From NCBI GenBank assembly GCA_001600635.1, contig BCKL01000003.1, forward strand, positions 1,468,928 to 1,532,927: 64,000 nucleotides of DNA. The letters run 5' to 3'. This DNA comes from Leucosporidium creatinivorum (Eukaryota; Basidiomycota; Microbotryomycetes; Leucosporidiales; Leucosporidiaceae). This document shows positions 31,153 to 59,543 of this stretch, in pieces (position 1 is the first letter of the stretch; each line of letters opens with the position of its first letter). The notes beneath the pieces were generated by a model. The model did no database searches and was not told where the DNA came from. It saw nothing but the letters and a program-made list of their open reading frames with translations. Position numbers and translations under genes: made by a program.

Positions 31153-32395
31153 CTACTCCTCCTCGAGTGACCTGTGGGAGGGGAGGTCAGAACTGATAGT
31201 GAAAGGGGGAAGCATCGAAACGAAGCAAGACTGACCATTCCGGCCAATACCTGCGCTCGACCGACTCCACCTGCCTCAGCAACACGCTCCCAACCTCCTC
31301 AAAAGCATCCATGCACCTCGTACAATCCCAGTATTCCACTCGCTCAAGGCTAGCGTTGATAGCAGCCGGCGTGGCAAATTCTCGCAGCTCGTCCATCGCT
31401 TCGGCGCTGTAGAAGCCTTCCTCCCGGTGGTCCAGGTGGCCGTGTCTAGCAATCTTCTTGATGTATACGCGGCGGCGGAGCTCGTGGTACCGTCTGATAT
31501 CGTGGAGGTAGCCCAGGACCGACAATGCCTGCCGAAGGAGAAGCGTCAAGACCAGCGCTTCGGCGAGGCTCCGAAGATGGCGCTCTGAGCTTACGAGTCG
31601 TTCGACGTTTGTTGAGGTCGCTAGAGGACCGAGACCAACGGCGGAAAACGACTCAAAGACCGATTGTAGATCGACTGTGGCCCCCCAGCAGGGCATCCCA
31701 AGCCCTCGAGGCCAAGTCCGAGAAGTTGAAGTGACGGGCGAAGGCGAAAGCTTGCAGTGCATGCGGATAGGAGGGTCGCATAGAGGGAGCGTCGTCGTAG
31801 GGATTCGAAGGTACGAGCTGACTGATGTGGGAGAAGTCAGTCTTTGGACCAGCGCTGTGCAGCTCCCCCGAGGGCGCTCTTACCGGAACTCGCTCGCGAA
31901 CGACTCAATCCCCCGCTCAACCTATACATGAGAGGTCAGTAAGTTGATATGTAACCATTCGCTCTAACTCCTACCTTGTACTTGTCTAGGGCCGTCAGGA
32001 GCGGTAGCGACGTCTCCCACGCCCAAGGCTCAGGGTCGACGGGCTCAGCCTGCTGAGGGTAGCAGTAGGGAAGCATACGATCCAGGACCGCGGAATCCTC
32101 CTCGAGGTGGATTATGGGTCGACCTCCCTGCGTCTCGGCGGGTACAGAAGCAAGCATCTCGGCGAGCATGCTGGAAGAGGCGCCGAGGTTGGCTCGGTGG
32201 ACGAGGTAGGGAGTTCCACTGCGAGCAGAACGGTTAGCAATCGGCTCAGACACTTGAGATGTATACGGACTCCTTCGAACGCAGCTCGATGTCCGCGTCG
32301 GAGGACTGGAAGGTCGACGAGAGGGTGAGCTTGGGAGGGGGAGCCTGCTGCTCGCTCTCCTTGCCGAGTCCAGCTTCGTCGGCGGTGCGGCGCAT
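31153..32395 (-). pseudogene. BTB/POZ gene B', frameshifted copy
   Basis: The ATG at 32395 follows directly on a leader intron. Residues 1-45 (MRRTADEAGLG..., DADIELRSKE) lead into the BTB fold: YLVHRANLGASSSMLAEML, PIIHLEEDSAVLDRMLPYCYP, then LLTALDKYK. The C-terminal part has FAFARHFNF, VERL, and a YWDCTRCMDAF block with a CxxC pair, and ends near RRYWPEW. At 31681-31686 a run of six C (plus strand) puts the frame after WDALLG one base out against the continuation ATVDLQS, which aligns with gene B. Either the copy is broken or the run is a sequence error. The last intron has a GTCAGT donor and gives a WSLEEE end instead of W-stop. BTB proteins commonly act as substrate adaptors of Cul3 ubiquitin ligases; that role is an inference here. 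Confidence 0.65.
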
Positions 32396-33161
32396 CTGTC
32401 GAGGTGATAATCTGGTCAGTACATCTCTCGCTGCTCCCTGCGACTCTGTAAGCCCGTTTCTGAGAGAGACTTGCCTTGGAAACGCTGAGAAGAGACGCGA
32501 CTGAAATGCTTCGAAGACGTGCAGAAGAGCGAGAGACGTGTACTGAAGGTTGAGCGAGCAGGACGGGTATCTTCTTGTAGTCGAAACGAGGTCGAGGTGA
32601 AGGCGAGGTGAGCGGAGGAGGGGAAGGAGCAACGGAGCTGAGAGCTTCGAAGTCCAGCGGTTCGACCTTGGTCGAGCGAGAGAGTCTGCCTAGAGCTGTA
32701 AGGAGCTGAATTTGTCTGAGAGGGTAAAGGCAATCAGAGCAGCATGTTCGATCGAAGAGCCGCCGAGCGAGCTTCGCCAAGGTTGGCTGCTCGGCGCCGA
32801 GCTGCGAAAGCACCAAGAACGGGCAGGCGAGGCGGCGCTCGCGCCTCTCGAGGGGGAGCTAGATATGTACCAGAAGCCATGCCGCTCCAGGCTTGGTCGA
32901 AGTCGACAGGCATACCTCTCATTCGCCAGTCCTCGGCGATGGCTACGGCGCCGAAGGTCTTCTCTTTGACAGCCCCGACTTTGAGGTGCTCTCGCACTCT
33001 CTAGCTCTACAGCACGTCCTTGGAGTCCAATAAAGCTCCCCCCGAATTCAATGCACCAGTTCTGACCCCGCTACCGCCTCTAGTTGCCCCTCGGCGATGG
33101 CTCTGGCCTCTCCTGCTCGTCACAACCTGATCCAACCGGCAGTTTGTCCCGCTTCAGCATC
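32396..33161. promoter_or_regulatory. Leader of B', conserved with the leader of B
   Basis: About 500 bp of this gap aligns with 46920-47555 in front of gene B. It includes a 5' UTR intron whose donor is GC (AAG|GCAAGT) ending at the B' ATG, and an upstream stretch whose translation is conserved between copies (see findings). Confidence 0.6.
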
Positions 33162-34383
33162 TTACCTATCAAAGAAGAGATTGGTCAGGAAGCCTCCTCC
33201 TCGCTGTTGCGGAGGTTCAAACACGGGCGAACTCACCACTTCTCGTCATGCAGCTCAGCCAGCGCCGCCAGCCGGTTCTGGAGGGTATCGACCACCCGTT
33301 TACAAGCGAAGTAGCACTGGTTGCACCGAGGCAAGGTCTCGTAACCTGGCGAAAGCTCAGCAAACGCAGACTCTAGCCCTGGCGCCGTGCATGCACCTTC
33401 GACATCGTCCCAAAACTCGGGGCAAGCCGGGACCTCGCCTGCATGGGGGTGACCTTCAATTTCGTCGAGGTACTCCATCTTGGCAGACTGTTGTAGCTGC
33501 TGCACTTCGTAAAGATGCACGAAGAGGCGCAGCATCTGAAGAAAAGCTAAGCAGTAAGCGACTCCGCTCGGCCACCAGCAAGCCAGTTTATGGGACTCAC
33601 GACCGACGGCATATCGACGTACGCGCCAAGGATACCAATTTTGAGTTGAGCTAGGTGTCCCTCGAGATCGGGAGGACCGCGGGCAGACTCGAGGAGACCG
33701 AGTTTGGCGCTGGCGAGAATGTCGTTGTACTGAAAGGCTTTGGAGAATGCGTAGGCAAACAGGCTCGTGTACAGGCCTGGCCATTCTGATCTCTCAAGAA
33801 ATTGAGGCCCGAATATGGAGCTTGTGGTGTGACGCAACGAGAATCAGCGCAGGCTTGCGCACCCGACTCGGCCGAAGGCCTTACTGCAGAGCTCCGGCAA
33901 ATGCTTCGATGCCTCTCCAGACCTGAATGCCGAACATGTCAGTAGACATTGACTGAAGTTGATTCCAAGAGCCCACCTCGTACTTGTCGAAGGCCGCGAT
34001 GAGCGCAACGTCCTCGTCCATGTCGCCGAGCTCGAGCCGAGGGACCTTCTTAGGGTAGAAATAGGCCAGCATCCGGTCCAGCACAGCTCCCGATTCCTCG
34101 AGCGTGATGACGGGGACCTCAGCGTCGGGTGCAGGGACCAGCTCGAACATGCCAGCGAGCATTTTGGAGGAAGCGAGGAGGTTGGCTCGGTGGACGAGAA
34201 ATCGGACTCCACTGCGGGAGAGAGGGGTCAGCGATGAGTTGCAGGGTTCTATACAGCTACTCACTCCTTTGACCGTAGCTCTACATCAGCATCGGCAGCG
34301 TTGTAGGTCGACGAGAGGGTAAGCTGTGAAGGCTGCTGTTCCCCAGCTTCGCCGAGGCCGGCTTCTTCGGCCGTTTGGCTCAT
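33162..34383 (-). CDS. BTB/POZ protein A'
   Basis: The ATG at 34383 follows directly on a leader intron. The protein begins MSQTAEEAGLGEAGEQQ, then the BTB fold: FLVHRANLLASSKMLAGMF, VPVITLEESGAVLDRMLAYFYP, then LIAAFDKYE and VWRGIEAF. The C-terminal half has YAFSKAFQYNDIL, IGILGAYVDMPSV, RLFVHLYEVQQLQ and a cysteine region with CPEFWDDVEGAC and a CNQC pair. It ends ELHDEKW, with the Trp codon split by the last intron. All junctions join in frame, so this copy looks whole. It is probably a ubiquitin-ligase adaptor (family knowledge; partner unknown). No BACK or Kelch domain is recognised. Confidence 0.75.
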
Positions 34384-34889
34384 CTGTGCAAGCAGTCAGA
34401 TGGTCAGCAAAGCTTCACTTGCTCGAGAGCAGCCTCTGAGCTGAACAGAGCGACAAGCTTACCTTGAAAACGCCTGAGGACGGGCGAGGGACACGACAGA
34501 GGGCCCGAAAGCGAGAGCGAAGGCGATACGATCAACTGCAAGTCGGCCGAGCAGCAGCAGGTAGCTTGAGGATGTCCAGACGAGTTCGACTGCAAATCGA
34601 GGTGAAGGCGAGAAGAGAACCTCCTGCGCCGTGGAAGTGACGCATATGAGCGAGTGTAAGCTGCTGCAGCCTCGCCTACTCGCTGAGATGAGGTACATAG
34701 AGCACCTACATACGCCTTGATTGAGCCGACTACTTCACGAGCATTTTCCCTCTCTCAAGCTGCTCGGCGACAATACTTGCTGTCGCTTTCGCACCTCGGC
34801 CCAGCAAGAACGTCTAGGAAAACCGGAGAGATAATCTATACAGCACATTAGAAATCCTACACCCTCGTAATTCTCGCTGCACCCTCGGC
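34384..34889. promoter_or_regulatory. Leader and promoter of A'
   Basis: It holds the 5' UTR intron of A' (GTAAGC donor, GCTGAC branch, CACAG acceptor at the ATG) and weakly matches the region in front of A. The far side is the 3' flank of the DnaJ gene. Confidence 0.5.
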
Positions 34890-36925
34890 TCAAGGCTTGA
34901 ACCCCGGAGGTGGCGAAGGTGCAGCGCCGAATGCTCCTCCCAGCGGGGGGTTGGAGTGCTCATCCTTCTTGACCGCCTCGTATGCCTCTCCGAGTAGGCC
35001 GAGCGCAACGGCGCGCTTGCGGAGGGTCGAGACGGGCACCTTCTCCTCCTCGGTCGAGAGCAGGCGGTCGCAGACCTCGCGGATGATGGATTCGACTTCG
35101 AGTTTGGCGCCCTGAGGAAAATACAAGGTCAGTCAGAGCATGAGAAGGATCTGTAGGCCTACGGCGAACCTTGAAGAGAGCGTGGAGACCCTGCGAAAGA
35201 GAGACGAGGTCAGCGAGCGCTCGACCGAAAGCCGGAACAGAGCGCCAAAGCAAGCTCACCATCTGCGCTGCCTTATCCTCTAGCTCCTTCTTCTTCTCGT
35301 CACTCAATCCACTCTTCTCGGCCGCTGCGAGAGCCTCGAAGACGTCCTTGAGAGCGTAGGCCGAGCGAACGGTCGAGACGGTTTGACCGACGATGTGCGC
35401 GGTGGACTTGACGGAGTGGAACCATCCTCCGACGCCGAAGGGGATGGGTCCGGTCGTAGCGAGGTAATGTCTGATCGGGCGGAGAAGGGGAATGGAGGGA
35501 TTGAAGGAAGGAACGGATAAGAGCGAAGGTCAGCGCCGAGCTTGGAGGCGAGCGAGAAGTGAGTCGCCGCACTTGGACTTAGCCGAGTACACGAATCCCA
35601 CAGTCTGCAGCAGCTCTACACCGTAGCTCTCCTGCTTGAGCTCCTCGGCCTCGATAGCCCACATTGTCCGAACTGCGAAGGAAGACGAGGTCAGCGAGCC
35701 TTCGAGAACAAGCTACAGCTAGCACTCACCACCTGCAGCAATCTGCTCGTCATCCTCGTTCTGCGCCTGCTCAGCGAACAGCGCCAGCTTGCTCCTCAAC
35801 CGCTCCATCAGCATCTTGACCCTCTCCTCCCTGACCTTGGCCTTCTGATCCGACAACTTCTTCTCCGCCGCATCCTTGGCCTCCTTCTTCTTGCGAGCGA
35901 CCTCCTGCTCCTCGGGCGAGAGCACAGGTTTGCCGTCCTTGCCCTTGGTGGTGGTGACCGCCGAGCTCGCTGGCTTCTCCTCCTCGTCTTCCTCCTCTTG
36001 CATCGCCGACTTCATCTCCGTGCCAAGCGAGATCGTTCCGATGATGTCCTGTTCAGGCGCAGTGTTAGCTCTGCGCCTCGACCGAATCGAAACCCTCCTC
36101 CGCCGACGCCGAGCACTCACCTGGAACCGCTCTCCGCCGAAGAGCTGGGAGAAGATGCTCTCCGGGTCAACCATTCCCTCCTCGTTCGCCCCATCTCCCT
36201 TGCCCTTGCCGAACTCGTTGTACGAGTGTCGAAGGCCCTCGTCCGAAAGAGTGGTGTAGGCAATCGCGATGTCCTTGAAGCGCTCGGCGGCTGTTGGGTC
36301 GTCGGGGTTCTTGTCCGGGTGGTTCTTGATGGCCTGTTGATGTGTAGGAAGGTCAGCAACTCTGTTTTCAGCAGGAGGCAGCACGAGCCGCGAGAGGAGC
36401 GAGAGCAGAACGCACCAGCCGCCTGTAGGCCTTCTTGATCTCTTCGGTGGTGCAGGTTGCTGGTAGACCGAGCAGCTATTGATGCGCAGATGGTGGAAGG
36501 GTCAGCCTTCGAATTTGTAGCTTCATAGCAGCAGCACAGCCAGCGCAAGCAGCTCCAGCCACGCTTGGCGCCAGAACTCTGCAGCCGAATCCGAGAGCTC
36601 ACCTCGTAGTAGGTCATATCGAGTGGCTTCTCATCTGTAGTACGGTATATCGCTGTGAGCTTCCGGTCTCGCTACAAGCCCGCCTGAGCTCGCCAACGAG
36701 AGTTCACTCACCTGTTCCGATCCTCCTCTTGCCAGCCTGCCTGACCTTCGGCGGGCGGATAACCCAGGTCTCCCCACAGCTAGCGCACTTGACAGCGAAC
36801 AGATCCTCTGTAGGATGGCTCGGCGGCGCCTGGTACTCGACTTCCGCCTTGCAGTGCACGCATGAGGCTGAAATCCAGCTGCCCTTGAGCCGGCTTTGCA
36901 CCATCGGTACTGACATGGTGGCCAT
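34890..36925 (-). CDS. DnaJ protein with N-terminal zinc ribbon and DnaJ-X domain
   Basis: The ATG at 36925 starts MATMSVPMVQSRLKGSW. Next is a four-cysteine ribbon (CVHC at about residues 20-23, CASC at about 45-48) and then, across an in-phase intron, DEKPLDMTYYELLGLP, the J domain. The J domain has the HPD tripeptide (NHPDKNPDD) and ends near YNEFGKGKG. After an acidic stretch comes a long helical DnaJ-X type region (VRTMWAIEAEELKQESYGVELL, SVKSTAHIVGQTVSTVR) and the tail GEAYEAVKKDEHSNPP. J plus X domain is the layout of yeast Caj1/Djp1, Hsp70 co-chaperones with roles at the plasma membrane and in peroxisomal import. About eight introns are seen, including a 21-nt exon at 35170-35190. The ribbon is the odd part. 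Confidence 0.88.
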
Positions 36926-37284
36926 GCTGTAGCCTTGTAATCTAGCGAGAGCGCTAAGTGAGGTGTAGGCGAAGACGAGGTAAAGGGCGGAGTTCAAAGA
37001 GCACCTCGTTTCACCGCTTCGCTTTCGGCGCCTCGCCAGGGGCTTCGGCACAGGTCGAATTTCGCTTACGGGAGGGCTGCAGGTGAGTCTATGTGTGCGC
37101 TAGTGCTTCTGCAGCGGCTTGTAACTCGGCCGCCTCTCTTTCGCCTCACTTTGCGCGTGCAAAGCCCTTGCTCGGCCGGCGCGCCTCTGCGCTTCTTCCT
37201 GACCCTTGAGTCGAGCCCGACCTCTACATCCTATTAATATACATCTGTATAGTGTCCGCTGCCCGAATCACGCTCCCAGAAACC
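36926..37284. promoter_or_regulatory. DnaJ promoter region
   Basis: The 14-mer GCTGTAGCCTTGTA at 36926-36939 touches the start codon side and recurs in front of TRM5. No exon is seen. Confidence 0.45.
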
Positions 37285-38258
37285 CTACCCGAGGTCCTCC
37301 TCCCGGCGCCGACCCTTCGGCGTTCGTTTTGTATCGTCTAAGAGGACCTTGCCGACGGTGATGAAAGACTGAACACCCTCCTCGAACGTATCTCGAGTAT
37401 CTCCGGGGCCCCCATCTTGTCGTGGTAGCTCTGGACATTGTCAGAACCCTGGTCAGCCTCCGCCGAGCTGTTCCCCTCACCGCCGAAACTCACCTCACGC
37501 CTGTAGAACGAGATGATTCTCAACTCCTCCGACTCTCCGCTACTTTCCCGTGTCGGAGATAGATGCTCGGCGGATTTTGAGTTCAGTCGGCGCTCGCGAC
37601 CGGCTGAAGTGAGGGATGATAGAGGGCGAGCGCGAGCGCCGAGGTGGACGATGTGCTGCATGAGAGTGAATTCAGCTGATAATTGTGAGCTGCGGGAGGA
37701 AGACTTCTATACAGCTGTAGCTTCTTCCACGCGACGAATTTCGGCGGAGAGGATGAGAGCGGGCTCGATGGCTCGCTGCTCGGCGAGTCGCTTGGGAAGC
37801 TGGAAGGCGAGATTGAGCTTGGTACGCTGTCTTCAATTGGTTCGGTGACTCACGCTACTCATGGTAGTCAACTCGATGGCTGAGGAGTAGTCTCGCATCG
37901 GCAGCAGCGACGGACGGGCTCGTTTGGCAGTCCGTCGCTGGAGACTGGCGGCTCGGTCCTGCTCTTTTTCGGCACCACTTGACGCTGAGGCCTCAGTCGT
38001 ATCTCGACTGAGCTTGTTGATGAACAACCGAGGTACCTGTGGAATCAGTATCAGCTCGAATTGCTCAAAGCTTTGTGAGCTAAAGCTCACCTGTCGGCCC
38101 TCGGCTTCGGCGGACCAAACGACCCCGACCTGTGTCTCTCGCTGCAGCTTGCTGCCAAGACTGACGGGCCCATCGTATGGAGAAGCAGATGAGAATGTCT
38201 GGCGACGCGGGCGAGGTGAAGTTGGCAACGAAGGAGGAGGCGACGAGCAGGGAGACAT
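37285..38258 (-). CDS. Hypothetical protein
   Basis: The ATG at 38258 starts MSPCSSPPPSLPTSPRPRRQ. The likely second exon reads VPRLFINKLSRDTTEAS through RPSLLPMRDYSSAIELTTMSS. Farther exons contain QLPKRLAEQRAIEPALILSAE, LMQHIVHLGARARP and SEELRIISFYRRE. The middle splice sites are uncertain because predicted introns there would be very short. Two endings are possible: one reading GVQSFITVGKVLLDDTK and stopping at 37285, the other, in the frame that continues directly from RRE, stopping at 37338. The protein is basic and helical in its middle and disordered at its start. I do not recognise a family. It shares its promoter gap with the HPP gene. Confidence 0.5.
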
Positions 38259-38765
38259 CTCGGCGAAGGTTGTGAAGCTGGGAAGCAAGGAGAGGAAGGG
38301 AGATCAACCCAAGATGAACGGAAGCCTAGATATCTTGGGGCGAGGCGATGCTACGCTCCTGAAGCTTGTTGCCTCGCCTGTGCGAAAATGGAGAGATGGT
38401 GAGACTGAAAGGAGAGACGAGAGGAGAGTTCGCCGAATCCCCTCTCTCGACGGTCGCGTCGTCGAGATGAAAGGAGGGGACGGCGTTTTGTTGTCTGCCT
38501 CGGTCTGTAGGACAGTTGGCGCCGAAGTAGCGAAAGAACGACTCTGTAGCTGGTGTGAACTTGCGGAGCCCCTCTCCGCTCGCTCGGCGATGCAGTGCAC
38601 CGAGATTTGCTCGGTACTGTTCTCCTCCTGCACTCAAAAACGGCTCTGCGATCATTCTACAGCCTCACATGATGCAAGTTCGGCCCTTCACCACGCGACC
38701 GAAATGGCCCCACCTTACGAGCGCGTCGGAGTTGAGCTCTTTGCTTCCTGCTTTGACCCGCTCGC
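38259..38765. promoter_or_regulatory. Divergent promoter region, hypothetical / HPP
   Basis: The gap lies between divergent starts at 38258 and 38766. Other open frames overlap it, but none carries a recognisable domain. Confidence 0.4.
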
Positions 38766-40274
38766 ATGCTTCAAACGCTCTCTTCAACCCGTATCGTCTC
38801 TCCGCCATCGTTCCCACCTCCTACTGCTCCTGCACCAACATCCCGGCGCACTTACCAGCGGGAGCCTTCGCCCAGCCCAGCGAGACTCCGAAACGGGGAG
38901 GGCGGAAGGCGGTTCTCGCACTCTCGAGGAAGGCCGCCGGCAGTGGGAGGGAGTAGTCTGAGTAGAGAAAGAAGTAGGAGTTTGAGTGTGGGAGGTGATC
39001 GGGAGGAGCAGGGGAGCGGCCGAAGTGAGAGCGGGAGCCGAGCGCCGCTGTGGAGGAGTAGAGGGAAGGATGGGGTGCAGGTCTCGGTCAATGTTGTACA
39101 AGGGAGTATGAAGAAGAGTAAGAGGGCACCACTGAGTCGATTACCGCCTATCGTCGCTCACTTTCTCGGCCATCGACCAACTCCGTCGGTCTGCTCGGCT
39201 CCTTCGCTTGCACCGCTCTTTGCTGACCTCTCATACGCGCAACAGATCAAAGCTGCCGTCTCCAATTTTCCCCCTCCTCCACCACCTCCCTCCGCAAGCC
39301 GAAAACCTCCTCCTTACCTTCTTCGGCACCTTCGGGTCCATCCTCCTCTGCTGTGCCATCTCCAACAGCCTCTCCCTCGAGTTCTCGCAAGTCCCACTAG
39401 CTTTTGGTAGGTACTCTCGTCAACATTTCCTCCACTCGAACGAGCAGGCTGACACCTGCTTCTTCAGGCTCGCTCGGCGCAACCGCCGTCCTGCTCTTCG
39501 CGGCGCCCGAAGGCCCCCTCAGCCAACCTCGACACCTTATCGGAGGCCATATCATATCAGCTCTCGTCGGCGTCTGCATCTCATACCTCTTCTCCCTCTC
39601 GCACGCCTTCATCCCGACCGAGACCGCTGATGGGAGCAGCTTCGGCCATCTCATTCCCATCGCTGCTGCGCTCTCGGTCTCCATCTCCGTTCTGCTGATG
39701 CAGGTAACTAAGACAGTACATCCGCCAGGTGAGTAGTCACGGCGTTCGATCAGCTTGTCGAGGGCGTTCGCTGATCTGCTCTCACTCGACAGGGGGAGCT
39801 ACTGCTCGTGAGTCTCGCTCGCTCGTCGACTGCTTTCGCTCTTGCTCTCCTCCGTTGTCCCTTTCGCCCCCCGCCCTTGCCCCTCTCCGTTACAAGCCTC
39901 ACCGCCGCCGAGCTGACCCTCCGCTTCGCGCAACAGTGATCGCCGCCTTCCGCCCCGACTTTCTGTTCGTCTTGCTTGTCTTTCTCTCCATCATCACCAT
40001 GGGAGCATGGGCATGCGTGATAGGCAACCTCGGTCGACGGCGATACCCAGTCTAGTGAGCGTTCCCCTCCGTTGAGCTCGGTTCGGCGCTGACTCTCGCT
40101 CCGATTCGTAGCTGGTGGGCCCCCGACGAGCCAGTGCAGGGAGGTCCGACAGCACCGATCGGAGTGGATGACGAAGGAGGATTAGGTGCAGTAGGCGAGG
40201 AGGAGGAAGATGAGGAAGAGCTAGAGCGAGAAGCCGACCGAGAAAGGGGAAGGAAGCCGAGGCGTCGTTCGTAG
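38766..40274 (+). CDS. HPP family integral membrane protein
   Basis: The ATG at 38766 opens a Ser/Arg-rich cytosolic part of about 120 residues. The HPP domain follows: RLPPIVAHFLGHRP, a helix FFGTFGSILLCCAISNSL, GATAVLLFAAPEGPLSQPRHLIGGH, helices LVGVCISYLFSL and LIPIAAALSVSISVLLMQ, the name motif HPPGGATAL, and LFVLLVFLSIITMGAWACV. The tail is acidic and then basic (RKPRRRS). HPP proteins are four- to six-helix membrane proteins; plant and cyanobacterial members have been linked to nitrite transport, and the fungal role is open. The GGATAL part comes from a 15-nt exon at 39793-39807. The first intron uses a GTCGGT donor. Confidence 0.85.
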
Positions 40275-40456
40275 CTCGTTGCACTTAATTCGCTCTTTGC
40301 CGATCTTTCATACACGAGGGTGCGGTATACTGAAGAGCACTGATGGATTGCGAACAGGCAAAGGGAGGGCGTGCAAAGCAGGTATCAAAGCGAGGAAGGG
40401 GGATAGATCAAATACGAATTAGGGGGGAAGGTGGGATGCGGAGACTCTGTAGGCCT

Positions 40457-41137
40457 CTACTCGTGACGGCCGAGCTTGTCGCCTTCCTTGTGGAGCGACT
40501 TGGCCGCCTTGACCTTGGCGTGAGCGGCCTTGGCCTCGATGTGAGCCTCCTTCTCGAGCGCGAGGATCTCGGCGCGAGCATCCTTGACGGCCTGTGTCGA
40601 CGTAGACTCGGTCAGCTACATGGCCGCGGATTCACATAGCGAACGGTTCTTCTCATACCTTGCGACTAGCGATGAGGGCGGCGTCGGCGGCCTTCTCGGC
40701 CTCGATGGCGATGGAGAGCTTGGTTTGAGCGCCCTTGAGGCTGTCTTGCCTGTCAACCATCACTTGTGTCAGCTCTCTCCCCTCGTTCCACCTCAGTAGC
40801 GCCCTCCCACTCACTTGGAGAAGCTGAACAAACCCCCTCCGTTGCCTCCGCTCTGGCGCTTCTCGGGCGTGTCGATGCTCTTGCGCCCACCGAGCAATCC
40901 CCTCTTCTCACCACTAGCGCTCGAATCGACGTTCTGATCTCCCTTCCTCGAGACGGTGTTCTTGCGACCGAAGAAGCCCGACTTCTGCTGCTCGACGGGC
41001 TCAGGCGAGGTGGAGCGAGCGAAGAGGGACGACTTCTTGGTGTTGGTCGAGGTGGCCGTGTTGGTGTTGTCTTGGATGGTAATCTTGTTGGGAGGGGGAG
41101 TGCCCGTAGTCGAGTTGCGCTTGGAGCCGAAGACCAT
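40457..41137 (-). CDS. Small coiled-coil protein, copy 2 (LGRHE family)
   Basis: Three exons are inferred. The ATG at 41137 begins MVFGSKRNSTTGTPPPNK. The N-terminal half is disordered with repeated basic-Ser motifs (KKSSLFARS, KSGFFGRKN, KRGLLGGRK). The C-terminal helix reads QTKLSIAIEAEKAADAAL, ASRKAVKDARAEILALEKEA and ends EGDKLGRHE. The helix and ending match the gene at 29980-30793 on the opposite strand. No known domain is recognised. The alternating SLFARS/FFGRK/LLGGRK pattern (hydrophobic-Gly-Arg) in the first half may be short binding motifs. Confidence 0.7.
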
Positions 41138-41732
41138 CTTGAGCTACAGCGCGAGCGAGGTGCGAGTCAGCCTCCGCTCTCACGTGCAGCTCGGAGAGGT
41201 GCAGGCGATAGAGTACTCACTGCTATTAGGTGTAGATAGAGCTGTAGGAGAGTAGCGAAAGCGAACAGAGGCGACGAAGCAGCGTGGTCGGAGGGAGAGA
41301 GTCCAAGCTCGAGTTGGCCGTCATTTCTGAGCTCGAGCCAGAGGAGGTGCATGCACTCAGGTGTGACGCAGGAATTGCAGTGCAATACGTATGGAGAGGT
41401 ACTCAGAGTCCTGTGAGCCTTGGAGAGATGTCTAGCGAGTAACGCGCTGCACTGAGAAGCCCCGTCGACTTCGCTCGCTCTTCGCAGTGCGCTGCTTCGC
41501 TGCAAAGAGCAGGACTGAGCAGCTCTGTCGACGTTAGAATGATCGATTGTGTATTGGGATGACTGGGACGAGCTCAGAGCCCGAGGAGCCGACGAAAGGC
41601 GCCTGTAAAAGGCGATTCGAATCATCGCCGAGCACCCTCCTTCGCTGCGAAAGTGCCGAAACGAAAGCCGTACTATTGCGAGCACGGAAGGGGGTATCAA
41701 GACAAAACTATCTACAAGCTGAAGCAAGCACA
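41138..41732. other. Intergenic, nothing recognised
   Basis: Promoter of the small coiled-coil gene and 3' flank of the phospholipase D gene. I see no exon, RNA or repeat. Confidence 0.5.
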
Positions 41733-44700
41733 CTAAACGTAGACATCAATCGTCGCAGCGTTGACCTCCAGCCCACGCTCGAGGAGCGACTCCTTGGCGA
41801 GGAAGTTGAGGGGCATGGCGACGAGGTGACCGCGCACTTGATCGAGCTGCTCCTTGACGTGCTGTACGGGCATGTCGACCTTGGCGACGTGACCGGCCTT
41901 GATGGGCGCTTGAGGGACCCACTCGCTGTACTCCTTCCAGGTTTCGACGTGGGTGGAGGGGACGACGTGGAAAACCTCGTCGAAGATGGCGGCGTTCTTG
42001 TCGGCGGTTCCCTTCCAGAGGCGTTCGCACTCCTCGCCGAGAGGGTCCTGAAGAAGCAAAGGCGAGTCAGCGATGGCTCTGCTCGACGGCCTTCCCTCAA
42101 CCACTCACCATGACGAGCCTATCCTCCTCCGACTCGGTCTCGTCGATGTGAGGTACTCCTACTGGCTTCATCGCGGGCGTGACGGGCTCCTCGCTGTGCG
42201 AAGGGCAGAATTGAGGGTCGATGAGGCCGAGGTGCTCCCTCCAGAGACGACGGCGCAGAGTAGCGGCGAAGCGGGAGGCCATGTAGGGCTCGCCGTTCAT
42301 CATCGACGGGATCATGTCCGTGGTGTCCTCGACGACGACGGCAATTTCCTGTATGATGGAGCGAGTGTTAGCGTCGGCGCGAAGGAGGAGGGAAAGCCTA
42401 GACTTGCCGAGTCGCGGTCGCCGAGCTGCGAGCGCTCGTTGAGGTTGGCCGAGCCCATCAACACACGGCGGTCGTCGACGATGAGGAGCTTGGAGTGAAT
42501 GTAGAGCTCCTCGGTGACGAAGGCGTTGCGCTCACTCTCCTCGCTGCCGCTCCAAGGCTCGTCCATGAGCGATCCTCCCGACCTCTTGAGAGCGTAGTGC
42601 GCGACCGAGTCGGCGATCTTCTCGCGCACCTCGTCTCCTTGCTCGAAGCGGTGGATGATGTCCCGCGCCTCGTCGTAGCTTTGGGGGAGAGGGATGGTGA
42701 CGGTGGGAGGAGCGTTCTTGGCCTTGTCCTTCTTGACGTCCAAGTTGATCATCTCGGCTCCCTCTGTTCAGCGAGTCAGCGATGGTTCGAGTACTGTAAA
42801 CGTGACAAGAGTTCACCGATGCCGAGAGCGAAAGTGACCTGCTTGTTCTTCTCGAGCTCCTCGGGAAGGGCGTCGGGGCCGAGGAAGACACGACCGAGCG
42901 CCGCCTGAGCTTGGAAGAAGGACACGCCCGACTTGGCCTCCATCGCCTTGAAGCGCTCGGGATCGCTGTTGATCCTGTTGAAGAGAGCACATGGTTAGCT
43001 ACAGCGCGTCAAGAGGCCAACCTTAAACTCGCCTGTCGTAGGAGCGGAGGTTGTAGAAGGAAATGTAGTCGTGCGGGTTGTAGCCTTCGCGCTCAATGCA
43101 CTCCATGATGGAATCGCCACCTCGGCAGATCGAGTAGTAGGTCGCTCCCATGATGGCGAGCGTGCTGGCGTTTCCCTGTCGACTCAGTTCGGTCAGCTCG
43201 GCCGCCATCTCTGAGCTTTCTGCACTCACTTTGAGGTCACCGGCGAAGCCAGGAATCGCTGGGATCACCACCACCACTTTGAACTTCTTGCCAGCCCTTG
43301 CAGCCGACAAGATTCGCTCGGTGATGGCCTTGCCGATGAGGTTCTTGACGAAGGGCTTGCCGGGCGCCGTGTTGGTGATGAAGAACTGGTTCTCGATGTA
43401 AACGCAGTGAGACGCCTCGGAGATCATCCTGTGTGGGAAGCTGTCAGCGAACCATTCGGGGCGAAGGCGCGAGGCGGAAGGCGCCGAGATGACAAGGTCG
43501 AGAAGAAAAGGTCCGACAGAGACTTACTGCATGTAGGCGTTCTGGATCGAGTGCTCGCTGTCAAAGTAAAGATCAGCTCGGCTTGGGTGTACTCGATGAG
43601 CTCCACTCACGTCAAGATTCCATGACTCCAATCGGCGGACGACCTGAGCGCCTGCACTGTGAGCGATCCCTTGTGACCGAGACCACCATGCGGGTCGATG
43701 CCCTGCTCATCCTGAGGAGGAAGCGCATGCCTCGTGAAAGCCTGTCCGATCTCCCTAAACTTCTCCCAGTGCGGGTGAGAGATGATGGCGGGAGGAGGCT
43801 GCTCGTTCTCGACGAGGACGTGAGGGAAGGCGAGGACGGGGTAGCGAGAGTCGTGGCGGTGCTTGAGATGCTTGAGGAAGTTCCAGCGTCTGCGAAAGGG
43901 GGCGAGGTCAGCGACGGAGCGAGAAAGAGCAGCGCCGAGCTCACTCGACGAAGTGCTGGCAGATGTCCATGACGGCGGGTCCACGGAGCATGAGGTGTAC
44001 GTCATGCCAAGGCATGCGAGCCGTATCGAGTCGGCTTTGCTGGTTGGAGACCCTGTTCCATCGAAAACTGTCAGCTCTGAAGTGGTTCGACCCGAGAGAA
44101 GCCGAACTGACCACTGGTCGACGTGCTGGAAGTCCTGCACTCGGGCGTTGTTGTAGTCTTGACCGGGGAAAAGCGAACGACTGAAGTCGGTGGGGTGAAC
44201 GTCGGAGAGAGGGAAGTTGTGCGTATCCCAGCGCCCGAAGCAGAGGTCGAGTCCTCCCACGCAGGCGACGGCTCCGTCGACGGCTACAATCTTCTCGTGG
44301 TGACTCCAGAGCATCGTCATCTCTCCTCCGAGGTGGTCGGGATGCCTGATGCAGGCGACTGTGGGAGCGGAAGCATGTCAGTCACCGTGCGAGGAATCCA
44401 GTTGCGCGACGGAGGAGGCGCCGAGAGGAACCCCGAAGCTTCACTGATGCTGAGCGCCAACAACAGCTCCGACAGTACAGGACATAGGCTCACTGTTCTC
44501 GTGCATGTCCTCGAGATGGTGCTTGGTGTGCGCCGAGGAGAGCGACATCGACTGGGTGACCTCCTTGTAGATCATGACGAGGACCTTGACGCCCTGCTCG
44601 GCCTTGCGAAGGAGGATCCTATCGAGTCGCATGTTGTCGTGCTCCGAGGGGGCTCGGCGGAGGAAGAGCTCGGGAGTGAGCCACCTGCGGCGATGGGAAG

Positions 44701-45255
44701 TCAGCGCCGAACTGAGGTCGGGATCGTTCTTACTCACCAATCTGCGATGAAGATCACCTCCTTCGCCCCGTCGAGAATCTCTGCAACAGCGTAGAAATAG
44801 TCGTGGCCGTCGATGTACCTACAGTGAGTGAAGCGAACGCACGCCGAACGAACAATCACGGGCAAGTCAGCTCGCCGTTCTTTCTGCATCAGAGCAGAGG
44901 AGTGCTACGAGAGCGCGAGCAAACATACCACTTTACATCGTTGCCCGGCTTGACGTCGGCGAAAGACTGGAAGCGGTGAGAAGCACAGATCTCCTGCAAG
45001 CGACGGTCCTCCTCCTTCTCGTGCTCTTCGTCGTGGCCTGTAGGGAGGTACATGATGAGCTCAGCGGTCCTCTGCAATGTACAGCTCTAACCCACGATGA
45101 TCAGGGTTGACGGCGACTGCAGAACGTACAGGTCAGCTCTCGAACTGTGCGATGATGCGGTGGGGCTCACAAGCGACGCTCTCCTTCAAGCGAGAAATCC
45201 GTCCGGGTAGCTTCTGGAAGCCCAGCTTATCGAACCCTTTACTGAGTTTGTCCAT
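41733..45255 (-). CDS. Phospholipase D (two HKD motifs)
   Basis: The ATG at 45255 starts [19 protein letters not shown]. About ten introns interrupt a protein of some 900 aa. HKD motif 1 is [17 protein letters not shown] and motif 2 is [18 protein letters not shown]. Between them are [33 protein letters not shown] and YIENQFF, all typical of eukaryotic PLD1-type enzymes. It hydrolyses phosphatidylcholine to phosphatidic acid and choline. PX and PH domains are not visible, so this resembles the short fungal PLDs, not Spo14. At 45070-45091 a 22-nt GT...AG segment interrupts the frame in the conserved [15 protein letters not shown] region (see findings). The gene is divergent from BTB gene A across 313 bp. 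Confidence 0.92.
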
Positions 45256-45568
45256 CGCTGCAGTCGAGTTGGATTCGTAGCGAACCGAGGGAGTTTAAGA
45301 GAGTTCAAGCTTGAAGTCGAGCGCGAGTGACGGTCGACGGACCCCCGCCGTTGTCCTCTGGAATTTGCTCGTACGCTTCGACCTCGCCTGGACGTCCGAA
45401 AGCTACATAATCTGTCGGATACTGCTCAGCTACAACTCTCCGCTTTCCGCTCCCTTTCCGAGCTCTTGTCGCGTCTCTCGAGTCGCGCTAAGTGAGTGTC
45501 GCTCTCTGACGCGAGCTGCAGGGCTAAAGAGCAGCAGCAGCGGACCATAACGTTTGCATATTCTGTAG
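45256..45568. promoter_or_regulatory. Divergent promoter, phospholipase D / BTB gene A
   Basis: The right half is the leader of gene A with a 5' UTR intron ending in CTGTAG directly at the ATG. It has partial similarity to the A' leader. Confidence 0.5.
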
Positions 45569-46802
45569 ATGTCCCGCACCGCCGAAAAAGCCGGCCTCGG
45601 CGAAGCTGGGGAACAGCAGCCTTCACAGCTCACCCTCTCGTCGACCTACAACGCTGCCGATGCTGATGTTGAGCTACGATCGAAGGAGTGAGTACTTTGC
45701 TACACTATCTCAAACCAGCGCTGACCCTCTGGGCGATAGTGGAGTCCGCTTCCTCGTCCACCGAGCCAACCTGCTCGCTTCCTCCAAAATGCTCGCTAGC
45801 ATGTTCGAGCTGGCCTCTGCACCCGACGCCGAGGTCCCCGTCATCACTCTCGAGGAGTCGGGAGCTGTGCTGGACCGGATGCTGGCCTATTTCTACCCTA
45901 AGAAGGTGCGTCGGCTCGAGCTCGGCGCTAGGGAGGAGGACGTCAAGTTTATCGCGGTCTTGGACAAGTACGAGGTGAGCGCTGCGTCAAGTCTCGCGTA
46001 TAAATTCACTTATAGTCTGCGTCTCCAGATCTGGAGGGGCTTGGAAGCCTACAACTGTGCCTTTGCCTGAGCTGCCCCTGGCCCTGGGTCTAACTCTGAA
46101 CCTCGGCGCTCTCAGCGCTTGCTGACACCCTCCTGGTCAGCTTCAAGTTCAATGCCGATCTACAACTACGTCCAATCAAGCAATGGCCGTCCCTGGACGA
46201 CAGTCTGCTGGCCTACGCCTTCGCCAAAGCTTTCAATTACGACGACCTCCGCACCCACGCCAAGCTCGCCCTACTCGAGTCGGCGGTCAACCAACACGAC
46301 CTCGAGACAGACCTCCCCAGTGTTGAGCTGGGACCCCTCGGAGCATCTATCGACTTCCAAGCATTAGTGAGTGGGAAGCCGTAGCCGACTGGCCAAGGTC
46401 ATCGTCGAGCTGATCAAGGAGCCTTTCCTACAGACTTTGCGCCTTCTTGTTCACTTTCATCAAGCACAACGACTTCGGGAGTACCGGAAAGGCTGTTTCT
46501 TGGAAGATATAGAGAACACTCTCACATCGAGAAGCAGCGTTGCCCGAAGCTCTGGGACGATGTCGAAGAGCACTGCACGTCGCCAGGACTACTAGCAGCC
46601 TACCGCGACGTCGCACCTTCCTTCATCGATGGGGAGCTTCAGTGCTCCAGGTGTTTCGACGAATTGGGCGCATCGATTGCCTTCCTGGCTGGCGAACTGG
46701 CGGCGCTCAGCGAGGAGCACGACAAGAAGTGGTGAGTTCGCTTCGGTTTGGACCTCTGCAACTTGAGGAAGAGCTTGCTGACCAGCTAGTCTTACTAGGT
46801 GA
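45569..46802 (+). pseudogene. BTB/POZ gene A, probably truncated copy
   Basis: The protein begins MSRTAEKAGLGEAGEQQ and the BTB fold (FLVHRANLLASSKMLASMF, VPVITLEESGAVLDRMLAYFYP, FIAVLDKYE, IWRGLEAY) is nearly identical to A'. After AYNCAFA the expected donor reads GAGCTG instead of GTAAGG, so the frame ends at 46068-46070. The downstream exons are still there with good acceptors (LAYAFAKAFNYDDL, LRLLVHFHQAQRL, CPKLWDDVEEHC, CSRC, SEEHDKKW), but near 46501-46530 they also need a one-base shift between LEDIE and the following HIEKQRCP. Either a BTB-only protein of about 138 residues is made, or the gene is dying. The span given runs to the old terminal stop. Confidence 0.65.
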
Positions 46803-47555
46803 AGCGAGGTAGCGGTATTTGGAGCGGCGATTAGCTCGGCCTTGCTCGAGCAAGAGGCACCAGCGCCATCGCCGAGGGCCATTCGGGAGCGGTAGTGGGG
46901 TCTGTAGCTGGTGCATGAAATGGGAGCAGAGCTACCTGGGACTCTGAGGATGCGCTGGCGAGTGGGAGAGTACAGCAAGTGCGTGAGCTGGTCGAAGAGA
47001 TGACCTTCGGCGCAGGAGCGAACGCCGAGGGCTGGCGAGTGAAAGGCAAACCTGTCGCCTTCGACCAATCCTAGGGCGTCATCGCCTCTTGTATATGTCT
47101 GGCTCCCTCTCAAGGTGCAAGCGCCGTCTCGCCTGCCCGCTGTTGGTCGTTTCGCAGCTCGGCGCCGAGCAGCCGACGCTGGCGAAGCTCGTTCGCCGGC
47201 TCTCATATTGAACGGTCTGCTCTGATTGCTTTCACCCTCCCTGACAGCTCTCTACCTCTCTGCAGCTCGAGGCAGAGTGATACGATCCCCGACCAGGCTC
47301 GACTTCGAAGCTGCTCCGCCGCTCTTTCTCTTCCTCCGCTCTCCTCGTCTTCACTGCGACCTCGCTTCGACTACAAACAGCTATCTGGGCGTGCTCGCAT
47401 AGCTTCTGGTACACGTCTCTGGCTCTTCTGCACGTCTTCGAAGCATTTCAGTCGCGTCTCTTCTCAGCGTTTCCAAGGCGAGTCTCTCTCAAACCGCGCT
47501 TACAAAGCTGCAGGGAGCAGCGAGAGAAGCACTGAACAGCTTCTTATCACTACAG
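46803..47555. promoter_or_regulatory. Leader of B, conserved with the leader of B'
   Basis: About 500 bp aligns with 32396-33060 reversed, including a leader intron with a GC donor (AAG|GCGAGT) that ends at the B start codon. Confidence 0.6.
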
Positions 47556-48779
47556 ATGCGCCGCACCGTCGACGAGGCGGGCCTCGACGAGGATGGCGAG
47601 CAAGCTCCACCTCGCAAGCTCACCCTCTCGCCGACGTACAATGCGTCTGACGCGGATATCGAGCTACAGTCGAAGGAGTGAGTACCGCGCTGTCTCCTTC
47701 TGATCCGCCGCTGATTCCTGGTCCACAGCGGAACGCGCTACCTCGTTCACCGAGCGAATCTCGGCGCCTCATCGAAGACTTTCGCCGGCATGTTCACCTC
47801 CACTCCCTCCGACACGCAAGAGGCTCGACCTACAATCTATCTCGAAGAGAGCTCATCTGTACTAGACAACATGCTCCCCTACTGCTACCCTCAGAAGACA
47901 CCGCCGGTCGACCTCAGATCCGCCGAGGCATGGGAGGAGGCGCTACCTCTTCTCGCTTGCCTCGACAAGTATGAAGTGGGTTCAGTGCTCGTGATTCACC
48001 GCTTGACCGTAGCTGACGCATACCTGTACAGCTCTGGCGCGGCGTCGAGTCCTGCGAAGCCGAATTGGCGTAAGAATCCGAGCCGCCAGCCGCCTCCTAG
48101 ACTTGGCTGACCGCCTGCCTACTCAGTCGGCTTGCAGCAATCGACGTCAAAAAGGTGGACGAGCAGTACTGGCCCTCCCTTTCCCAGTGCTTCCGAGCCT
48201 ACGCTTTCGCTCGGCACTTCGACTTCAAACCGCTCCTCAAATCCGCCAAGCTCGGAATGCTCGAAGCGGCCACGCAGTGCGCCGAGATCGAACAAGCACT
48301 TTATGATGTACCACTAGGTGTATTGGGCACCTCCGTGGGCGTAGAGCGAGTGGTGAGCATCTCGAGGGCTTCACCGAGCGCCGGCATCGCCGCTGACCCT
48401 CGCTGTACAGGCCCTTCGCCTCTACGCACATCTTCACGCCGCCTCTCGTGTACACCACCGCTGCAACAACTCCTTTGTCCAGGCCGTGGACGATCACCCT
48501 CATCTACTTCCCGACGGCGATGACTATCAGTGGGAAAGAGACTCGTGGGAGTCGCTTTTCAATTATGTAACGTACAGGAGCGTACAGACGAAGATATGGA
48601 CAATAGATTATGAGCACTGGGATTGTGGGAGGTGCAGGGACGCGTTTGACGATGCCACAGATGAGTTAATAGACGGTCTCCACGACCTCTTCGCCGACTT
48701 CAAAGACCGGTGGTGAGTCGACGATCAGCTCTTTAACGGGAGAGGAAGTAAAGCTAATTCCATTTTGCTCCGCAGGTGA
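47556..48779 (+). CDS. BTB/POZ protein B
   Basis: The ATG at 47556 follows directly on a leader intron. Residues 1-45 begin MRRTVDEAGLDEDGEQ. The BTB fold follows: YLVHRANLGASSKTFAGMF, PTIYLEESSSVLDNMLPYCYP, LLACLDKYE, then LWRGVESCEAELA. The C-terminal half has AYAFARHFDFKPLL, VPLGVLGTSVGVERV, LRLYAHLHAASR, and a CxxC block EHWDCGRCRDAF, ending LFADFKDRW. Five introns join in frame; the last splits the Trp codon. This is the intact member of the B pair. Adaptor function for a Cul3 ligase is a family-based inference; nothing here names a substrate. Confidence 0.78.
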
Positions 48780-58306: not shown

Positions 58307-59543
58307 TCACCACTCGCAAGACTCGCGGTTCATCTTCCAAACAATGACACCTTGCTCCTCGGCGCTCTTGCAGACCTCGGCAGACAAGCCCTCGTACTCC
58401 AGCCCTCCGCAGACGTTGGTGAGCACGATACCAGCGACTGGCTCAAGCTCCATCGCAGTCAATCGGCTGATAGCGTGCCTCGTAGCTGCCTCGGTAATCA
58501 CCTCGCTCCTCGGGAGAAGGTAGAGCTGCAGAATGCCGAGCGTCGAGGGCGCCGAGGAGGTGACGATGTCGCCGATGGCGACAAGAGGGATGGCGAGAGC
58601 TTCGGGTTGAGGGGTAGACTTGAGAATCTGAGCAACGTGCTCTGGCTTGAGATCCTCGACGCCGAGGTGGAGCTCGACAAGTTTGCTTCCATGAGCGGCG
58701 GTGAACGACACCAGACCATCAGCGGTAGCTTTGGGGAGGATCTTGGGAAGACGAGGGGTGATGGAGGGAAAGTAGAACGGACTGCTGGCCATGGAGACCC
58801 CAAAGTCGAACGCGGCGGGGTCGTGGGGCGGAGGGTAAAGCTCAACGTATTCGAACCTCTCCAACGAGTCGCTTCCCGAAGCAAGCCACTCGAGTTGAAC
58901 GTCCGTGAGAAGCGAAGCGAAGAGGTTGAGCTCGGTGAAAGCGGCGGAGCACGAGGAGGAAGGGGGAGCGGCAGGGAGACCGTCGTGCTCGGCGAAGAGG
59001 AAGCTGCTGAGGTTAAGCGAGCGAAGTCGGGGCCAGCTCCTGAGCGCGGCTTCGAAGTCTTCCATCTTGCACTGATCCATCTCGTAGACGCCGTTGGTAT
59101 CGAGGTTAAGCGCCTCGAGCTGCGAAAGCCGGCCCAGCGCTCGGCGCTTCTCGGCGTCGAGGTCGAAGAGGTTGCGGATCCAAAGCTGGCGGACATCCGT
59201 GAGCTGAAATACGAGCTCCTTGACGCTGTCGAAGGGGAGCGGGAACTCTTGGTCTAGCTCGAGGTCGAGCTGCTTGACGAGAGGGCGAAGGAGCGGGAAG
59301 GTGCCGTAGACGCGTTTGGCGCAGGTGGCGTCCTCGTAATTCGAGATGAAGAGGAGGTGATGTACCATGCTCTGTGCTGGCGCGGACCACTCCTTGCAGA
59401 CGAGCGAAGCGGCGCGAAGATCCTTGGGCGAGAGGTGTTCGAAGACGAGAGGCAGGATCTCGGGGAGCAGCTTGCCGGGCTGTAGGAAAGCAGGAAGGTC
59501 AGGTTTATACTTTCAGCAGGTAGCTTGGTCCGTAGCTCACCAT
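58307..59543 (-). CDS. F-box protein with leucine-rich repeats
   Basis: The likely first coding exon is the ATG at 59543-59541 alone, followed by GTGAGC; the second starts after CTACAG with the F-box: KLLPEILPLVFEHLSPKDLR then AASLVCKEWS. The rest, about 340 residues, has irregular leucine-rich repeats (LSQLEALNLDTNGV, RLRSLNLSSF, AFTELNLFASLLTD, KLVELHLGVEDL). F-box proteins are the substrate-binding part of SCF ubiquitin ligases through Skp1. The frame stops at CEW-TGA, where TGA lies inside a possible GTGAGC donor; if that intron is spliced the protein gains about 15 residues ending at 58192. Confidence 0.8.

Follow-up and report, generated by a model that had tools for sequence, protein, structure and literature searches.

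Four BTB/POZ genes of Leucosporidium creatinivorum lie in a symmetric array, with B' and A' on the minus strand and A and B on the plus strand, on the two sides of a spacer of unrelated genes. The question raised by this locus is how such a mirror was formed, and what keeps parts of its arms alike. The window analysed here is a stretch of 64,000 nt (C3:1468928-1532927). We favour, with a probability of about 0.6, the view that a block of two BTB genes was duplicated in inverted orientation long ago and has since been patched by ectopic gene conversion, in a genome where inverted paralogs are favoured by retention.

When the window was compared with itself by blastn, the strongest self-matches were two inverted ones between mirrored partners, 418 bp long for A/A' and 1308 bp long for B/B', and both lie on a common axis near 39,975 (Table 1). 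The other four self-matching pairs of places represent A-B type paralogy at 66-71% identity, two of them inverted and two direct. The inverted arms predicted by a sequence-only reading of this DNA were thus recovered as two reverse-complement homologies. The four gene starts that it proposed are all ATG with AG directly ahead, as would be required for the putative leader intron ending at the ATG of each gene. The start-to-start distances in the two arms are 1988 and 1987 by subtraction, the distances from BTB exon to BTB exon are 1993 and 1989, and the midpoint proposed for both pairs is borne out by BTB-exon axes at 39975.5 and 39973.5. A common intron layout was found in exons 1-2 of all four genes, which is the extent that was read. 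Two of the five unrelated genes that had been placed in the spacer were confirmed by Pfam, namely the DnaJ/DnaJ-X and phospholipase D genes.

The window mirror is real and geometric, and it is not perfect in sequence. Blocks of ~70-96% DNA identity alternate along the arms with stretches of ~45-60%. In 100-column bins, identity is ~48-61% in the 3' exons of A/A' and across much of the DNA ahead of 46.87 kb, with one bin at 70%. The description as a near-perfect mirror therefore holds for the geometry and fails for the sequence.

Table 1. Features of the window (coordinates within the window) and F-box inverted repeats on other contigs.
Feature	Position	Strand	Details
A', BTB gene, inner of left arm	33233..34383	-	exon 1 34383-34265; BTB exon ~34211-33977; more exons; stop near 33233
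B', BTB gene, outer of left arm	31187..32395	-	BTB exon 32217-31975; 3' end from open frame
A, BTB gene, inner of right arm	45569..46735	+	BTB exon 45741-45974
B, BTB gene, outer of right arm	47556..48718	+	BTB exon 47730-47975; 3' end approximate
Outer inverted repeat, left copy	31979..33271	-	A' 3' end, B' upstream region, B' exons 1-2; 73.3% to 46697-47971
Outer inverted repeat, right copy	46697..47971	+	pairs with 31979..33271
Inner inverted repeat, left copy	33968..34385	-	A' exons 1-2; 86.6% to 45567-45983
Inner inverted repeat, right copy	45567..45983	+	A exons 1-2
Run identical to lone paralog C3:1431271	34191..34320	-	130 bp in A', includes intron 1
Spacer between arms	34386..45566	.	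~11.2 kb
DnaJ/DnaJ-X exons in spacer	34960-36501	-	Pfam
Phospholipase D exons in spacer	PLD motifs in 42312-42767 and 43607-44377	-	Pfam
F-box inverted repeat	C16		1286 bp, 90.7%
F-box inverted repeat	C30		523 bp, 91.8%
F-box inverted repeat	C15		2706 bp, 85.5%
F-box inverted repeat	C10		240 bp, 73%

Three of the four window proteins (A, A' and B) exceed the Pfam cut-off for the BTB domain (PF00651), and B' scores 19.2 bits against a cut-off of 20.5. Among solved structures, SPOP gave the best match of its BTB domain to a profile of 15 family exons (E 3.6e-7). Judging from the domain only, the window proteins are probably BTB-type adaptors and possibly adaptors of CUL3 ubiquitin ligases. Past exon 2, A and A' share 44-60% protein identity in matched coding stretches.

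The layout is seen again elsewhere in this genome, which comprises 27.7 Mb in 63 contigs and was searched for BTB genes. The family census consisted of four single-protein searches with E ≤0.001 in at least one of them, and the two-piece C7:158537 was counted as one member. It gave 22 members, 14 of which lie in three mirrors: the window, one on C21 and one on C1. In each mirror, the members are on the minus strand on the left and on the plus strand on the right. The C21 mirror holds eight family genes, four minus and then four plus, whereas the C1 mirror consists of one minus/plus pair in arms of 3.8 kb at 91.6% identity. The arms of C21 contain homologous blocks at 95.5%, 86.5% and 91.3%, and most of the DNA between these blocks is unalignable. 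The eight members outside the mirrors (three on C7 with orientations +,+,-; C3:1431271; C3:1669808; C1:89272; C21:106080; C21:164334) lack a counterpart at the mirrored position; one of them, C21:106080, seems to be a fragment.

The spacers are of similar length (~11.2 kb in the window, 9.9 kb in C21 and 10.4 kb in C1), and no match among the three was found by tblastx at E 0.001. At the same threshold, the window spacer matched neither the arms nor the other two spacers. For C21 and C1, spacer matches were confined to the respective arms, the respective locus or, in one weak case, the stretch of the lone paralog C3:1431271 (hereafter C3b; E 7.8e-4); those of the C1 spacer to its own arms were weak translated matches. 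Because the three spacers lack homology in this comparison, we rejected both an element that carries its arms and a shared ancestral locus as the origin of the mirrors.

A, A' and C3b form one group in the trees, which also place as sisters the partners of B/B', C1L/C1R, C21_2L/2R and C21_4L/4R. The C21_1 partners are sisters in neither tree, and the C21_3 partners are sisters in the DNA tree only, with a support of 0.26. These two pairs, together with the unalignable intergenic parts, are what would be expected if single genes had been copied preferentially across a fixed axis and had then co-evolved, with no duplication of a block. We consider such a stepwise build quite unlikely, because the gene spacing matches from arm to arm, both in C21 (1593/1568, 3424/3430 and 3162/2828) and in the window, and because a non-BTB gene is also mirrored. 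The latter is an acyltransferase gene (PF02458) found at mirrored places in the C21 arms and at one further place only (C20).

The divergence between mirrored partners is patchy. For A/A', dS is 0.21 in exon 1 and 0.20 in exon 2, whereas intron 1 is 60% identical and the 150 bases before the ATG are 51% identical. B/B' exhibit the opposite pattern, with a leader (150 bp before the ATG) at 88% and a dS of 1.25 in the BTB exon (exon 2). In C21_4, exon 1 (dS 0.10) and the intron (94%) are close and exon 2 is more distant (dS 0.62); in C21_2, exon 2 has a dS of 0.04 and exon 1 a dS of 0.39. The BTB exons of C21_2L/2R encode identical protein sequence, whereas past exon 2 the two proteins share 35% identity over their middle part and 60-64% over two shorter stretches. 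These patterns do not require positive selection on the BTB exon, because its silent sites are also more diverged in B/B' and C21_4.

The longest identical run in each alignment was tested against 2000 column permutations, with constraint assumed to be equal along the genes. The C21 runs of 745, 271 and 102 bp each lie beyond all 2000 permutations. In the window, the longest run of the B arm is 58 bp (47422-47479, upstream of B; permutation maximum 38), and that of the A arm, 50 bp, is borderline (p ~0.03). A' also shares a run with C3b, which is located ~72 kb away (Table 1; permutation maximum 100). Intron 1 of these two genes is 100% identical, whereas their leaders are 46% identical. This run is likely a conversion tract, and a later tract overwriting intron 1 would explain the difference between A and A' in that intron.

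Patchy dS together with long identical runs, the signature by which arm-to-arm conversion was recognised, was found in A/A', B/B', C21_2 and C21_4. We infer that conversion is the cause, and the suggestion of the sequence-only reading that the copies recombine or convert is supported to this extent. Three pairs count against the explanation. C21_1 and C21_3, two of the seven mirrored BTB pairs, are highly diverged throughout exons 1-2, where no conversion patches were seen, and they are unsupported as sisters. The C1 pair is rather even (dS 0.40 and 0.36 in exons 1-2).

The same patches might be read as the result of purifying selection on conserved regions such as BTB exons and promoters, with drift elsewhere and no conversion. 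Some patches do coincide with coding exons or upstream regions, the longest run of the B arm lies upstream of B at a possible promoter site, and the lengths between homologous blocks are preserved, as expected from coding constraint. However, purifying selection is an unlikely explanation in view of the silent sites: those of A/A' exons 1-2 (dS ~0.2) stand beside a saturated leader and a poorly matched intron, and those of C21_2 are almost unchanged in exon 2 beside a diverged exon 1. It also sits poorly with the intron that A' shares with its distant paralog next to a dissimilar leader.

The C1 arms need separate treatment. They contain a 994-base block with N at two mirrored positions. Treating these Ns as mismatches leaves a longest run of 572 (permutation maximum 162), and in the arm without this central block it is 87 bp (p 0.017). 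We gave C1 little weight as evidence of conversion because Ns at mirrored positions suggest some merging of reads from the two arms, and the identity of the block may partly reflect assembly collapse. The spacer of the C30 F-box repeat, with 383 or more consecutive N, likewise shows that the assembly is questionable at some places close to repeats of this kind, and the arms of an inverted repeat on C13 (see below) are 99.9% alike. For the mirrors as such, however, an assembly artefact (false palindromes or collapsed repeats) is highly improbable. The window contains zero ambiguous bases, its arms differ by 13-27% and have unrelated flanks, whereas a fold-back would give near 100% identity throughout, and the C21 arms include the unalignable stretches described above.

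Inverted local paralogs are not confined to BTB genes. The F-box list comprises 147 hits, which is a lower bound because 150 of 330 candidates were scored. Adjacent hits of this list were inverted in 1 of 7 cases within 3 kb; at 3-20 kb the count was 25 of 32 (p 0.002), and at 20-80 kb it was 16 of 42 (p 0.16). The orientation test proper used the 105 hits with a neighbour within 60 kb, all of which were read. Among homologous pairs (≥60 bits) of these 105 hits, 18 of 20 at 3-20 kb were inverted, as was the nearest homologous pair in each of 14 clusters (p 0.0001). Both orientations are common among homologous pairs beyond ~22 kb. In each of the 26 reciprocal-best pairs, both members are located on one contig; 14 pairs are inverted and 12 direct, the direct ones being mostly farther apart. 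The repeats on C16, C30, C15 and C10 (Table 1) were chosen for opposite strands and equal or close scores, and hence they provide no evidence on the bias.

In the control families, close pairs were too few to judge orientation (candidates scored: MFS, 9 of 187; short-chain dehydrogenases, 19 of 110; sugar transporters, 9 of 189; P450, 53 of 53). In the P450 set, two genes on C13 lie 2.8 kb from each other on the same strand and may be a tandem pair. The lone sugar-transporter pair, also on C13, was inverted; its repeat extends over 3551 bp or more at 99.9% identity, and the spacer measures ~2.1 kb. An excess of inverted local paralogs is therefore present for the F-box genes of this genome, with single cases in other families. 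An explanation restricted to BTB genes was rejected, because F-box, sugar-transporter and acyltransferase genes have a like layout.

According to the duplication and conversion model, the A-B pair would have been copied once, in inverted orientation, ~10 kb away across unrelated genes, and the unselected parts of the arms would since have diverged to saturation. Short ectopic conversions between inverted partners, and sometimes with other paralogs, would re-homogenise patches, which would be exons 1-2 of A/A', the upstream part of B/B' and, with the paralog 72 kb off, intron 1 of A'. The same process would also have produced the C21 mirror, the C1 mirror and many inverted F-box pairs. Direct paralogs are described as deleting or duplicating and inverted ones as inverting, in the part of the literature consulted (PMC3449122). 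Homologous recombination of direct copies would thus delete one copy and the spacer, whereas that of inverted copies would only convert them or flip what lies between. We infer retention of this kind as the likely, and simplest, reason for the almost exclusively inverted orientation of F-box paralogs at distances of 3-20 kb; a duplication step prone to inversion may contribute to the excess. Retention is not absolute, because direct homologous BTB pairs exist within arms (~1.6-8 kb apart) and because 12 of the reciprocal-best F-box pairs are direct.

If the arms convert, they might also cross over, and the spacer would then be present in both orientations in the population through recurrent or even programmed inversion. 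We regard this addition as possible, with the odds against it. Outward-facing mirrors with spacers of 10-11 kb occur at three BTB loci, long near-identical stretches are available in the C21 run of 745 bp and in the C13 repeat, and recurrent inversion is described for human inverted repeats of like kind in the material drawn on here (PMC3961182). However, no identical stretch shared by the window arms is longer than 58 bases, and with such short runs they look like poor recombination substrates. Flipping of the window spacer is possible and unlikely to be frequent for the present arms; the C21 and C13 arms would be better substrates. A stronger proposal seems doubtful to us, namely that local BTB and F-box adaptor paralogs at 3-20 kb are subject to an inverted-only regime and that the mirror arrays are diversity generators, in which conversion between the arms would hold the BTB exons similar as the C-terminal exons drift apart, and crossing over would invert the spacer and rearrange the neighbours.

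Inverted paralogs that are kept alike by conversion are already known from nematodes and mammals. The arms of Y-chromosome palindromes are very large and near-identical, whereas the mirror arms described here are short, patchy, old and spread over several contigs. Both are inverted duplicates with arm-to-arm conversion, as far as the cited account of the palindromes goes (PMC3403216). Inverted paralog pairs kept across C. elegans, C. briggsae and C. remanei, for which conversion was proposed as the cause (Zhao et al. 2007, PMC1803023), are similar in that homologous genes are inverted and the inverted structure outlives the sequence. In the portion of that study used here, one pair is identical over the first 297 nt with diverged C-terminal parts, and one palindrome has four genes. 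The nematode arms described there adjoin, with spacers of ~100-400 bases, whereas the arms compared here have spacers of ~2-34 kb, with unrelated genes in the window spacer and up to four BTB genes per arm. Young C. elegans duplicates are often adjacent and inverted (PMC2728529, in part); here, the inverted excess also includes diverged pairs, at 3-20 kb.

Human inverted segmental duplications resemble the present loci in that inverted paralogs flank other sequence, and both inversion recurrence and conversion are discussed for them in the sections considered (PMC3961182). In KRTAP5-10/11, a 782-bp region at 99.9% within 94% repeats is given as the likely breakpoint. Inversion was shown there by genotyping, whereas the present data are one orientation read in one assembly. 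The earlier claim that no system of this form had been described was thus too strong, since these nematode and human inverted paralogs, as far as the cited portions describe them, are of like kind. Among the open-licence PMC papers listed, as judged by title and abstract, none concerned mirrors of BTB or F-box genes in fungi. Unusual here are the repeated occurrence of the layout and the small number of F-box pairs at 3-20 kb that are direct.

If the inverted excess holds genome-wide, this genome would serve as a natural experiment on the survival of duplicates under recombination, and duplicate survival would become testable by counting pair orientation against distance in related species. 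In that case it would also illustrate, in a setting other than sex chromosomes or nematodes, how one part of a protein can be kept uniform by inverted arms as another part diverges.

The F-box family, which was surveyed in the own genome with regard to paralog orientation, is very large, with at least 147 matches genome-wide when 150 of the 330 candidates were scored. Among the 105 genes read, all 26 reciprocal-best pairs lay on one contig. The window itself holds a single F-box gene (see table), and none of the matches listed is a second F-box match within 500 kb of it on its contig, C3.

F-box gene located in the window
Feature	Position	Strand	Source
Single F-box gene	window 58307-59512 (C3:1528302)	-	F-box search of the genome

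Outside the BTB genes, an inverted repeat carrying a sugar-transporter gene was observed at C13:53500-62999, with arms of at least 3551 bp at 99.9% identity around a spacer of approximately 2.1 kb; the left arm runs to the edge of the compared stretch.

At the BTB mirror locus on C1, a second gene of the arm (C1:242861-243478), encoded on the other strand, lies inside the mirrored part. Its Pfam BTB_2 score of 21.1 bits is just below the cut-off of 21.4, and weak translated matches connect it with the C1 spacer. The near-identical block of the arms contains N bases at mirrored positions (C1:230593, 230830, 244516, and 244753), which suggests that reads from both copies were merged.

At the C21 mirror locus, C21_3R (C21:132494 region), the right-arm partner of a mirrored BTB pair, lacks an ATG where its paralogs begin; it may be a pseudogene or may start at another place.
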